Assembly: GCA_947176355.1 (NCBI GenBank)
Contig: CAMWQY010000017.1
Coordinates: forward strand, 1 to 17,013
Source: an uncultured Porphyromonadaceae bacterium
GTDB taxonomy: Bacteria > Bacteroidota > Bacteroidia > Bacteroidales > Muribaculaceae
DNA length: 17,013 bases
Reading direction: 5' to 3'
Below, one piece after another: positions 10,956 through 15,012 of the stretch. Below the pieces are notes generated by a model. It searched no databases and was not told where the DNA came from. It saw only the letters and a program-made list of their open reading frames with translations. A program made the position numbers and the translations under genes. How positions within the stretch are numbered: the stretch's first letter is position 1; each line of letters starts with the position of its first letter.

Positions 10956-11027
10956 GAATTGAGAATCGAGAATCATGAATTGAGAATTGAGAATCGAGAA
11001 TCATGAATTGAGAATTGAGAATTTAGA
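10944..11027. repeat. Twelve-unit 7-nt tandem array after bcp
   Basis: Twelve consecutive heptamers without a register slip. ATTGAGA occurs seven times, ATCGAGA and ATCATGA twice each, and ATTTAGA once. A higher-order 28-nt period is visible: the block ATTGAGA-ATTGAGA-ATCGAGA-ATCATGA occurs twice in a row (10951-10978 and 10979-11006), then starts again. The bcp stop codon (10953-10955) lies inside it. Confidence 0.9.
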
Positions 11028-11112
11028 ATCAGCTCGGAGAGCTGATGATTATGATAAAACCCCAGGCTTCAGCCTGGGGTAATTTCTTACATATCAATAG
11101 CCTCGGAGAGGC
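11028..11112. repeat. REP-like block of three hairpins
   Basis: Three close stem-loops: ATCAGCTC-GGA-GAGCTGAT (11028-11046, 8 bp), ACCCCAGGC-TTCA-GCCTGGGGT (11059-11080, 9 bp) and GCCTC-GGA-GAGGC (11100-11112, 5 bp). The first and third share the core CTCGGAGAG. They lie between the convergent ends of bcp and the GH28 gene, a usual place for REP-like elements or a bidirectional terminator. Confidence 0.7.
11053..11080 (-). terminator. Possible terminator of the GH28 gene
   Basis: On the minus strand the 9-bp GC-rich hairpin ACCCCAGGC...GCCTGGGGT is followed directly by TTTTATC, about 80 nt past the GH28 stop. The T-run is short, so termination is plausible, not certain. On the plus strand no T-run follows. 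Confidence 0.45.
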
Positions 11113-11161
11113 GCTTTATGATGTCGTATCTTATTCTCATTTCTCAATTAAAGAACATTTC

Positions 11162-12646: not shown

Positions 12647-12827
12647 TTCTGATATTAATTTTTTATTGTTAGACTATAAAAGATCTCACACAGAGGGCAC
12701 ACAGAGTAAAATTATCAGTCCTTTAAGCAAGATCAAACCATCTTGGATATTTTTAACTTAGACATAAATGACTCTTTTTATATGTAGAGGGACTTGCTTC
12801 GCTCGTCCTATAAGATCACTGAGAGAC

Positions 12828-13214
12828 TTAGTAGCCGTTAATAATTCGTTTCAGGCCATCTATCAATCTATTATTATTAAAGTTTATGAGAAATCCTAAT
12901 CTTTTATTTGTCAGTCTTAAATAAGTATTAAGCTGCTTATAAAATACCGGATTATCCTTTTCTGTGGATTTTAATTCTAAAATGATTTGATCTTCCACAA
13001 TTATATCAGCTCTATAAGCCAAATCGATTTTTATTCCATTGTAGACACAAGGAATTGGGACTTCGCATTCAACGTTTAAACCGAGCTGTCTTAGCTCATA
13101 CGCAAGAGCAACTTTATAAACTTGTTCGAGTAAACCCGGACCCAAATTCTTATGTACGACAATTGCAGACTTTATGATTTTTTCTGACAATTGATTGAGT
13201 TCTTCAATGGTCAT
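12828..13214 (-). CDS. GxxExxY family protein
   Basis: A 128-residue protein of the GxxExxY family, named for a motif seen here as GLLEQVY at about residues 27-33 within HKNLGPGLLEQVYKVAL. The second half has VPIPCVYNGIKIDLAYRADIIVEDQIILELKS, which fits a PD-(D/E)xK nuclease-like core (D about 75, ELK about 85-87). Family members are small and widespread in Bacteroidota and other phyla, often in multiple copies; no biochemical function is firmly assigned. It is complete, with ATG at 13212-13214 and TAA at 12828-12830, and has its own consensus promoter. It lies between inverted CACACAGAGGGC repeats. The DNA is more AT-rich by eye than the neighbouring GH28 and HlyD genes, consistent with acquisition. 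Confidence 0.9.
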   Translation of the reverse strand: MTIEELNQLSEKIIKSAIVVHKNLGPGLLEQVYKVALAYELRQLGLNVECEVPIPCVYNGIKIDLAYRADIIVEDQIILELKSTEKDNPVFYKQLNTYLRLTNKRLGFLINFNNNRLIDGLKRIINGY

Positions 13215-13283
13215 ATTTCCTGAATATAATTAGGTTAGATGAATATTGAGGTTACCATGCAATGCTCAACTTCTTGGAGTTTA

Positions 13284-13315
13284 CAAAATTACTAAATTTA
13301 TAACTTAAAACCAAA
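13284..13315 (-). promoter_or_regulatory. Consensus Bacteroidota promoter for the GxxExxY gene
   Basis: On the minus strand TTTG (13312-13315), a 20-nt spacer and TAATTTTG (13284-13291) match the -33/-7 consensus. Transcription would start near 13278-13281, giving a leader of about 65 nt. The promoter is inside the inverted-repeat cassette. Confidence 0.75.
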
Positions 13316-13350
13316 TGTATTTAATAAAATCTCATAGAAAAATCAATCGC

Positions 13351-13410
13351 CTCACACAGAGGGCAAACAAATAATAACTCCGTGTGCCCTCTGTGTGCAA
13401 TTTGTGTGAG
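13351..13410. repeat. Large inverted repeat with CACACAGAGGGC arms
   Basis: CACACAGAGGGC (13353-13364) and GCCCTCTGTGTG (13386-13397) are perfect 12-bp complements separated by 21 nt. Outer CTCACACA (13351-13358) is also complementary to TGTGTGAG (13403-13410). The same 14-nt sequence CTCACACAGAGGGC recurs at 12685-12698, on the other side of the GxxExxY gene. Confidence 0.8.
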
Positions 13411-13416
13411 ATATCA

Positions 13417-13448
13417 TACAAAATCGGACAAAATCGTCCGATTTCGTA
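13417..13448. promoter_or_regulatory. Dyad upstream of the sigma-54 promoter (putative activator site)
   Basis: AAATCGGAC (13421-13429) and GTCCGATTT (13436-13444) form a perfect 9-bp inverted repeat, extended by TAC/GTA after one mismatch. The half-site ACAAAATCG also occurs twice directly, exactly 10 bp apart (13418-13426, 13428-13436), with a near match inverted at 13439-13447. It lies about 90 bp upstream of the predicted start, the usual range for an enhancer-binding activator. The cognate regulator is not in the window. Confidence 0.6.
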
Positions 13449-13462
13449 CACCTATCAAAAAT

Positions 13463-13483
13463 ATTAAGTATTGAGTATTAAGT
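13463..13483. repeat. Three 7-nt units upstream of the sigma-54 promoter
   Basis: ATTAAGT, ATTGAGT and ATTAAGT in 7-nt register, between the dyad and the -24 element. They belong to the same heptamer type as the other arrays. Confidence 0.6.
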
Positions 13484-13494
13484 ATTTGCATTTT

Positions 13495-13510
13495 TGGCAC
13501 GCATATTGCA
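13495..13510 (+). promoter_or_regulatory. Sigma-54 (RpoN) promoter of the HlyD-permease operon
   Basis: TGGCACG, four bases (CATA), then TTGCA matches the -24/-12 consensus TGGCACG-N4-TTGCW at every defined position. The invariant GG and GC are separated by exactly 10 nt. The start would fall near 13520, giving a leader of about 120 nt before the HlyD ATG at 13642. Such promoters need an ATP-dependent activator, for which the upstream dyad is a candidate site. Confidence 0.85.
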
Positions 13511-13520
13511 AGGAAATCAG

Positions 13521-13619
13521 CAAAGACCCTTAAGGACTTTAAAGACTTTAATGACCTTAAAGACCCTAATGACATTAAGGACCTTAAAGACCTTAAGGAC
13601 TCTAAAGACCCTAAAAACA
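13521..13619. repeat. Eleven-unit 9-nt tandem array forming the operon leader
   Basis: Eleven consecutive 9-nt units of consensus TTAARGACY (for example TTAAGGACT, TTAAAGACC and TTAATGACC) with no register slip. The array begins at the predicted sigma-54 start and ends 22 nt before the HlyD ATG. On the minus strand it reads as a Ser-Leu-Arg/Lys repeat, which makes a spurious open frame at 13414-13620. Confidence 0.9.
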
Positions 13620-13641
13620 TAAAAAGACAAACAATAACAAT

Positions 13642-14892
13642 ATGGATAGAGAAATCCCCAACTCAGAGCGCCGCAAGACTAAGCGCAACAAAATAATAAA
13701 ATTCGGTGTCATTGGCTTAGCAGTGATAGCCGGAGCAATCGGCCTCGGATCTATGATGCGTGCATCTGTCGCATCATCCGACCTTACAATTGGCACTGCC
13801 GACACCGGCACAATTGATGTGACAGTGACAGGCACCGGAACAGTAGCCGCAGCATTCGAGGAGATAATCACCTCTCCCATCAATAGCCGAATAGTTGAAG
13901 TCTATTGCCGCGCCGGAGATTCAGTTAAGGCAGGAACTCCCCTTCTTCGTCTTGACCTCCAGAGCACTGAAAACGAAGTGAATCAGCTTAGCGACCAGAT
14001 CGCGATGAAAAATCATGAACTCGACCAGCAACGCGTGAATTCCGACACCCGCCTCACCGACCTCACAATGCAAGTGAAGGTAAAGGAAATGACTCTTAGC
14101 CGTCTTGAGGCTGAACTCCGCAATGAGAGATATCTCGACAGCATCGGCAGCGGCACAGGCGACCGCGTGCGTCAGGCAGAACTCGCGGTAAGCACCGGGC
14201 GTCTGGAACTCGAGCAGATGAAACAGCAGCTCGCCAACGAAAAGCGTGTGGCACAAGCATCTGAAAACGTGAAGCACCTCGACATCGACATTGCCCGCCG
14301 CAACCTTGACGAGAAAAGCCGCACTCTAAGCGACGCTCGTGTCTCATCACCCCGCGATGCCACCCTCACCTTCATCCAAGACCAAATTGGAGAAAAAGTG
14401 AGCGAAGGACAAAAGATAGCAGTCATCGCAGACCTCGGGCACTTCCGTGTAGATGGAGAGATATCGGACAGCTACGCCAATAAAATCGGAGTTGGCAGTC
14501 AAGCTATCGTAAGAATCGGGAAAGAGCGATTGAAAGGTGTGGTATCCAATCTGACGCCTCAGTCTCAAAACGGAGTCATCAAGTTTACCGTACGGCTTGA
14601 AGACGATGCTCATCCACGCCTCCGGTCAGGACTTAAGACAGATATCTTTGTAGCATGCGATGTAGTAGACGATGCTGTCCGCATTCCTAACGGCTCCTTC
14701 TACACCGGACCCGGCACCTATAGCCTATTCTTCCTGAGCCAAGACGGAAAGAAACTTGAGAAGCACGAAGTGAAGCTCGGCAACTCCAACTATGAATTCG
14801 TAGAAGTCCAAAGCGGCATCCGCCCGGGCGACCGCGTAGTACTCTCCGACATGTCCCGCTTCAAAGACTCCGCCTCCCTCCGAGTCCGCTAA
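13642..14892 (+). CDS. HlyD/MacA-like periplasmic adaptor subunit
   Basis: A 416-residue membrane-fusion protein that would link an inner-membrane ABC pump to an outer-membrane TolC-like channel. A basic N-terminus (RRKTKRNK) precedes one membrane anchor at about residues 20-40. A lipoyl-like half (IDVTVTGTGTV ... VEVYCRAGDSVKAGTPLLRLD, about 58-108) comes next, then a long helical hairpin rich in Glu, Gln, Leu and Arg at about 112-235. The second lipoyl half and beta-barrel (VSSPRDATLTFIQDQIGEKVSEGQKIAVI) and a membrane-proximal domain (VRIPNGSF ... GIRPGDRVVLSDMS) complete it. Layout matches MacA-type adaptors. It is the first gene after the sigma-54 promoter and is followed by MacB/FtsX-type permeases, so it is likely part of a tripartite exporter. 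Cargo is unknown. Confidence 0.9.
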   Translation: MDREIPNSERRKTKRNKIIKFGVIGLAVIAGAIGLGSMMRASVASSDLTIGTADTGTIDVTVTGTGTVAAAFEEIITSPINSRIVEVYCRAGDSVKAGTPLLRLDLQSTENEVNQLSDQIAMKNHELDQQRVNSDTRLTDLTMQVKVKEMTLSRLEAELRNERYLDSIGSGTGDRVRQAELAVSTGRLELEQMKQQLANEKRVAQASENVKHLDIDIARRNLDEKSRTLSDARVSSPRDATLTFIQDQIGEKVSEGQKIAVIADLGHFRVDGEISDSYANKIGVGSQAIVRIGKERLKGVVSNLTPQSQNGVIKFTVRLEDDAHPRLRSGLKTDIFVACDVVDDAVRIPNGSFYTGPGTYSLFFLSQDGKKLEKHEVKLGNSNYEFVEVQSGIRPGDRVVLSDMSRFKDSASLRVR

Positions 14893-14914: not shown

Positions 14915-14972
14915 ATTAATTTCTCCGCTAAAGATACAAGAGACGACAACGAAAATACCTACAGCATTAACA

Positions 14973-15000
14973 ATTATGCATTATGAATTATGAATTATGA
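14973..15000. repeat. Four 7-nt units just before the first permease gene
   Basis: ATTATGC followed by three exact ATTATGA units in register, ending 12 nt before the ATG at 15013. Several ATG triplets lie in the array but are followed by early stops. Confidence 0.8.
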
Positions 15001-15012
15001 ATTAAAAGAACT

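Follow-up and report, generated by a model that had tools for sequence, protein, structure and literature searches.

Related systems

NtrC-type sigma-54 promoters that carry an IHF site consist of a tandem palindromic enhancer, a bend site and a -24/-12 element. MacB is an ATPase fused to a MacB_PCD/FtsX permease. Bce modules, as far as the available parts of the sources go, pair FtsX-type transporters with two-helix kinases that have short loops (PMC10314905, PMC3023708, PMC8277102). Promoter prediction has tied sigma-54 to FtsX-type ABC permeases, COG0577 being enriched in Bacteroidia, and the report terms this enrichment first evidence (PMC12316311). By the available part of that report, the general link between sigma-54 and FtsX permeases in Bacteroidia is already published. 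An operator, a bend site, a cognate regulator and an operon all go unnamed in that part, and its main text does not use IHF, HlyD or Muribacul as terms. Neither there nor elsewhere in the literature searched did we meet the operator and bend site described below, or the accompanying regulator and operon logic. The same literature yielded no work on sigma-54 in Muribaculaceae. For this gut family, the present locus supplies a specific operator and regulator for sigma-54, together with a set of targets.

The window analyzed here is 17,013 nt long and is the entire contig C17 of a genome that is 74% complete and lies in 402 contigs; among named organisms, Muribaculaceae are its nearest relatives. 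A preliminary description of the window had proposed a sigma-54-controlled exporter operon, and that interpretation is supported by the comparisons reported here. We consider it very probable, on sequence grounds, that the region ahead of hlyD serves as enhancer and promoter for a sigma-54 exporter operon that regulates itself. As in NtrC-type promoters, a tandem palindromic enhancer and a candidate bend site accompany the -24/-12 element; unlike in those promoters, the operator occurs almost only in this family and the candidate bend site is near -24. Like the MacAB-TolC type VII exporter, the operon specifies an adaptor, FtsX-type permeases and TolC, and mechanotransmission is plausible (PMC8277102, available part); unlike in MacAB-TolC, the ATPase is separate and there are four half-permeases. 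As in BceAB-BceRS, so far as the available parts of the papers describe it, the FtsX-type transporter genes adjoin that of a two-helix kinase with a very short outer loop (PMC10314905, PMC3023708). This likeness is drawn from the genes and a kinase model; unlike the Bce system, the present one belongs to a Gram-negative organism, would act through a sigma-54 bEBP and would serve a pump linked to TolC.

The -24/-12 element

The element TGGCACGCATATTGCA lies on the + strand at 13495-13510, where the GG-N10-GC spacing of a sigma-54-dependent promoter is found, and 131 nt separate it from the hlyD ATG at 13642. Its presence upstream of hlyD, as first described, is confirmed. Base-shuffled versions of the window (2000 shuffles) each give 0.0025 perfect matches to TGGCACGN4TTGCW; the 2.74 Mb genome has five, versus none for the reversed pattern. 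Three of the other four genomic matches fall within ORFs, and the fourth is 82 nt upstream of groES (L014:2633-2648, contig C77). The match ahead of groES offers a helpful control within the genome, since groES is stated to be sigma-54-dependent in Bacteroides thetaiotaomicron (PMC12316311, available part).

Conservation was followed by taking the best -24/-12 match within 300 nt of hlyD in 53 loci, the window included. Left out before this count were 12 duplicates and four single loci: L033 and L053 (match not from residue 1), L021 (51 nt of upstream sequence) and L057 (the window's own copy). A score of at least 12.5 was reached by 52 of the 53 hlyD upstream regions, compared with 56 of 440 control ORF upstreams from the same loci; at 14.5 or more the counts were 35/53 and 4/440, and at 15.5 they were 15/53 and 0/440. 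All of 52/52 loci share the TGGC of the -24 box and the G of the -12 box, a uniformity that is partly built in because the scoring selects the best match, so that the weight rests on the controls. The Bacteroidota -7 box is TAnnTTTG. That a chance -24/-12 match is read here, with transcription coming from an ordinary promoter of that type, gains something from the recurrence of such short motifs, as the three matches inside ORFs illustrate. It is nevertheless scarcely credible: the promoter is present in 52/53 loci with fixed spacing to the operator, and TAnnTTTG is absent from the + strand of 13412-13660. Judged by its sequence context, the -24/-12 element at 13495-13510 is real.

Upstream operators

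A sigma-54 promoter is expected to have an upstream operator at conserved spacing, and one is present. The main enhancer operator, UAS2 (CGTCCGATTTCGTACA, 13435-13450, + strand), matches TGTCCG-N4-CGGACA at 10 of 12 positions and is centered 52 nt upstream of -24. A match of at least 10/12 occurs in 51/53 loci, with the center 51-53 nt before -24 in 49 of these 51. A score of 10 was reached by 6 of 1060 shuffles and by 14 of 440 other ORF upstreams; 12 of the 14 come from divergent neighbors with which hlyD has its intergenic region in common, and, of the remaining two, one is ahead of an exporter ATPase. A weaker copy, UAS1 (CATACAAAATCGGACA, 13415-13430, + strand), coincides with the peak of the second-operator score. 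Over 51 loci (L064, with a probable wrong start, and L050 left out) this score averages 5.1 of 12 at 20 nt upstream of UAS2, about two helical turns, versus 1.5 to 4.0 at all other offsets from 8 to 39 nt. The 9-bp dyad reported previously (AAATCGGAC at 13421-13429, N6, GTCCGATTT at 13436-13444) is exact as a sequence, and joins the right half-site of UAS1 to the left half-site of UAS2. As a literal operator it was rejected, because relatives conserve TGTCCG-N4-CGGACA instead; its arms are the inner halves of two tandem operators.

The IHF-like element

The IHF consensus is WATCARN4TTR. Between the operators and -24 lies an IHF-like element (TATTAAGTATTTG, 13476-13488, + strand) that matches this consensus, WATCARNNNNTTR, at 8 of 9 positions. 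Among 52 loci (L064 again left out), 34 score 8 or 9 of 9, compared with 6.9% of shuffles reaching 8, and 18 score below 8. In 32 of the 34 the element begins exactly 19 nt upstream of -24, and a T is found at -9 in 52/52 loci and at -8 in 51/52. At sites away from hlyD the same register holds a score of 8 or 9 in 6/10 cases (L139, L140, L142, L143, L144, L147) and of 3 to 6 in 4/10 (L138, L141, L145, L146). The genome has four DNABII matches, and for the one protein tested the closest PDB entry is an IHF construct, followed by HU chains.

The fixed -19 element might instead be an extended part of the sigma-54 promoter or the site of another protein, which we hold to be a serious but lesser contender. 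Its closeness to -24 is in keeping with this, the best-conserved bases (T-23, A-15, TT-9/-8) overlap the IHF consensus in part only, and the likeness of the tested DNABII protein is to HU chains as well as to IHF. The high scores in 34/52 loci compared with shuffles argue for an IHF-like site, as does the perfect groES -24/-12 element of the same genome, where, by eye, both the bend element and the TT are absent.

The exporter operon

The adaptor gene hlyD (13642-14892, + strand; 416 aa) matches HlyD_3, and RND_mfp at 107.4 bits over a cut-off of 94.9. It is followed on the same strand by half-permease P1 (15013-16365; 450 aa; MacB_PCD and FtsX) and by the start of half-permease P2 (16365-17012), which is cut by the contig end. 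The P2 piece in the window gave no Pfam match; it is collinear with P2 of the relative L020, which has an FtsX match. Of the 38 relatives fetched, 12 show the gene order hlyD, P1, P2, ATPase, P3, P4, tolC, response regulator, kinase. The operon is carried by a relative that can be cultured, Duncaniella muris (L038). The remaining 26 loci comprise shorter ones, ones truncated at a contig or flank end, and variants, L043 and L053 being examples without P1/P2; L031 gave no HlyD call, and in L026, L027 and L028 the ORF 3' of tolC is, within the fetched DNA, not the regulator. In L020, FtsX is found in P2, P3 and P4, and further matches are to ABC_tran, to OEP, and to receiver, Sigma54_activat and HTH_8. 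MacB_PCD is over the cut-off in P1 and P3, just below it in P2, and gives no match in P4.

In the window's own genome, contig C267 carries P3, P4 and TolC, and C242 carries the end of TolC, the response regulator and the kinase. Synteny with the relatives, as opposed to the assembly, links C17, C267 and C242 into what is probably one operon. Apart from its last bases, the ATPase gene falls in the gap that separates C17 from C267, and it is seen in relatives only. Of the downstream genes suggested for a search, the TolC-like protein, response regulator and kinase are thus in the genome and the ATPase is known from relatives. With that ATPase, adaptor, FtsX-type permeases, ATPase and TolC stand in one operon, as in tripartite type VII exporters, and the operon is predicted to make a TolC-linked, MacB-like exporter of this type. 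The earlier label of a MacA/MacB-like exporter holds in the sense of MacAB-like. The pump is not MacB proper, because its ATPase is separate (an ORF of 221 aa in L020) and it has four half-permeases, P1 to P4, none of which gave an ABC_tran match.

The exporter might secrete an endogenous peptide or lipid, with the kinase reporting that product, and not remove a toxic compound. We regard this as plausible though on balance doubtful. The adaptor does match the model of a darobactin-export adaptor, far below the cut-off (71.6 versus 450 bits), and in one relative two operator sites are ahead of outer-membrane beta-barrels; against it, inspection by eye of the window and of the listed relatives showed no biosynthetic gene adjoining the operon.

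RpoN, activators and the kinase

The genome encodes RpoN (PF04552, 150.1 bits, contig C291), the sigma factor such a promoter requires, and three strong bEBPs, on C242, C8 and C5, besides two weaker PF00158 matches. Absence of rpoN and bEBP genes would have spoken against the proposal; both are present. The C242 regulator has a receiver, AAA+ and HTH_8 domains and GAFTGA, as expected of a bEBP for a sigma-54 promoter, and is 93% identical to the L020 regulator. A Fis-type response regulator of the kind that had been predicted to lie outside the window is found on C242, and synteny with relatives puts its gene near the operon end. The C8 bEBP has the same layout and sits in a TolC-HlyD-permease-ATPase operon, whose promoter is mostly removed by the contig start; the C5 bEBP is without a receiver. 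Among 22 regulators, four gave no GAFTGA match, and the C8 regulator has GAFTDA.

A structure model of the C242 kinase places N-terminal helices at residues 2-23 and 27-67 with a three-residue turn between them, at moderate confidence (block pLDDT 63-77 over the helices, pTM 0.42, nine-row alignment). The model thus has the two helices and short outer loop of an intramembrane-sensing histidine kinase. In relatives, 16 of 17 kinase N-termini fit two helices by eye, L029 having one segment; a simple hydropathy scan did not cleanly separate the two helices.

Distribution in the family and order

The operator with TGGCAC at fixed spacing was found at 60 sites in 51/297 family genomes, versus two matches to the reversed control. 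The exact pattern misses the window because its UAS2 has two mismatches; the relaxed pattern finds, in the window's own genome, the window site only. In the genomes covered by the HlyD search (taken as G197 or lower, excluding the partial HlyD matches of G174 and G166:C97), 35 of 47 sites are within 300 nt upstream of an HlyD match. Of the other 12, nine were fetched: seven are ahead of exporter genes and two ahead of outer-membrane beta-barrels. A tenth fetched site, L146, is also upstream of an HlyD. By these counts, the operator with -24 tracks the MacB-like exporter class across the family. The two beta-barrel sites, L142 and L143 of genome G113, are near-identical operator and -24/-12 sites before OMP_b-brl_3 genes, and suggest a wider envelope regulon in that genome.

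The promoter might be real and yet be controlled by another bEBP (that of C8 or C5), the operon's own regulator acting elsewhere. The genome does have three strong bEBPs, one of which, the C8 regulator, is encoded within a paralogous exporter operon, and a site at L144 upstream of C8-like ATPase and permease genes leaves some room for such control. We judge it improbable, as the operator follows the exporter class in 7/9 fetched sites off hlyD, and the exporter loci L138, L139 and L145 carry on the same strand a related regulator of 56-60% identity.

Across the order, the operator and -24 pattern occurs in 11/393 genomes, three of them in the family, versus five reversed-control matches. Among the eight matches out of the family, only L128 has both a -12 and a bend element, and it is upstream of an HlyD at 54% identity. 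L130 and L135, the two of the other seven whose ORFs were read, have no exporter gene. At the search sensitivity used, the operator is nearly confined to the family.

Proposed regulation

The autoregulated promoter would work as follows. The phosphorylated Fis-type bEBP encoded at the operon's own end would bind the TGTCCG-N4-CGGACA tandem, whose two sites lie roughly 80 and 100 bp upstream of the start. Bending of the IHF-like site, probably by a DNABII protein, would let the bEBP meet RNA polymerase-sigma-54 at -24/-12, and ATP hydrolysis would open the promoter. The output would be the TolC-linked type VII exporter and more regulator and kinase; because the operon encodes both of these, positive feedback would follow if the regulator binds the operator. 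Hardly any of the kinase is periplasmic, so its sensing probably takes place in the membrane. The signal there could be damage to the membrane, a compound that acts on it, or the transporter in its loaded state; the preliminary description proposed envelope stress or a specific compound.

A further, tentative suggestion, rather unlikely as it stands and made by analogy, is that the locus is a Gram-negative counterpart of a Bce module, in which an intramembrane kinase would monitor how a MacB-like, TolC-linked pump is working and would drive its own operon through a sigma-54 bEBP. If so, positive feedback would give an all-or-none switch. This raises the testable question of whether an FtsX-type exporter can signal its own need via a membrane-embedded kinase.

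Repeats around the promoter

A leader of 9-nt tandem repeats (TTAARGACY-like; 13521-13619, + strand) starts about at the predicted start site; Rfam gave no match in the window. With up to three mismatches the pattern has 120 matches in the genome (60 per strand, overlapping), versus one for the control, and in the 20 loci inspected the arrays are near unrelated genes. The array was therefore rejected as an operon-specific feature, similar ones being found across the genome. Copy number and sequence vary among close relatives.

A GxxExxY (PDDEXK_3) gene (12828-13214, - strand) lies between 21-nt inverted repeats of the CACACAGAGGGCACACAGAG type, and this unit (12683-13412) ends beside the enhancer. 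In L020 the gene is absent, and remnants of the repeats remain on either side. A roughly 97-nt interspersed repeat (11027-11120), with three short hairpins by eye, is present in at least 16 places in the genome, and in L020 (19024-19120) lies between tolC and the regulator gene. Between hlyD and P1, at 14972-15003, there is a repeat of the ATTATGAATTATGAATT type, similar copies of which occur at many places in the genome.
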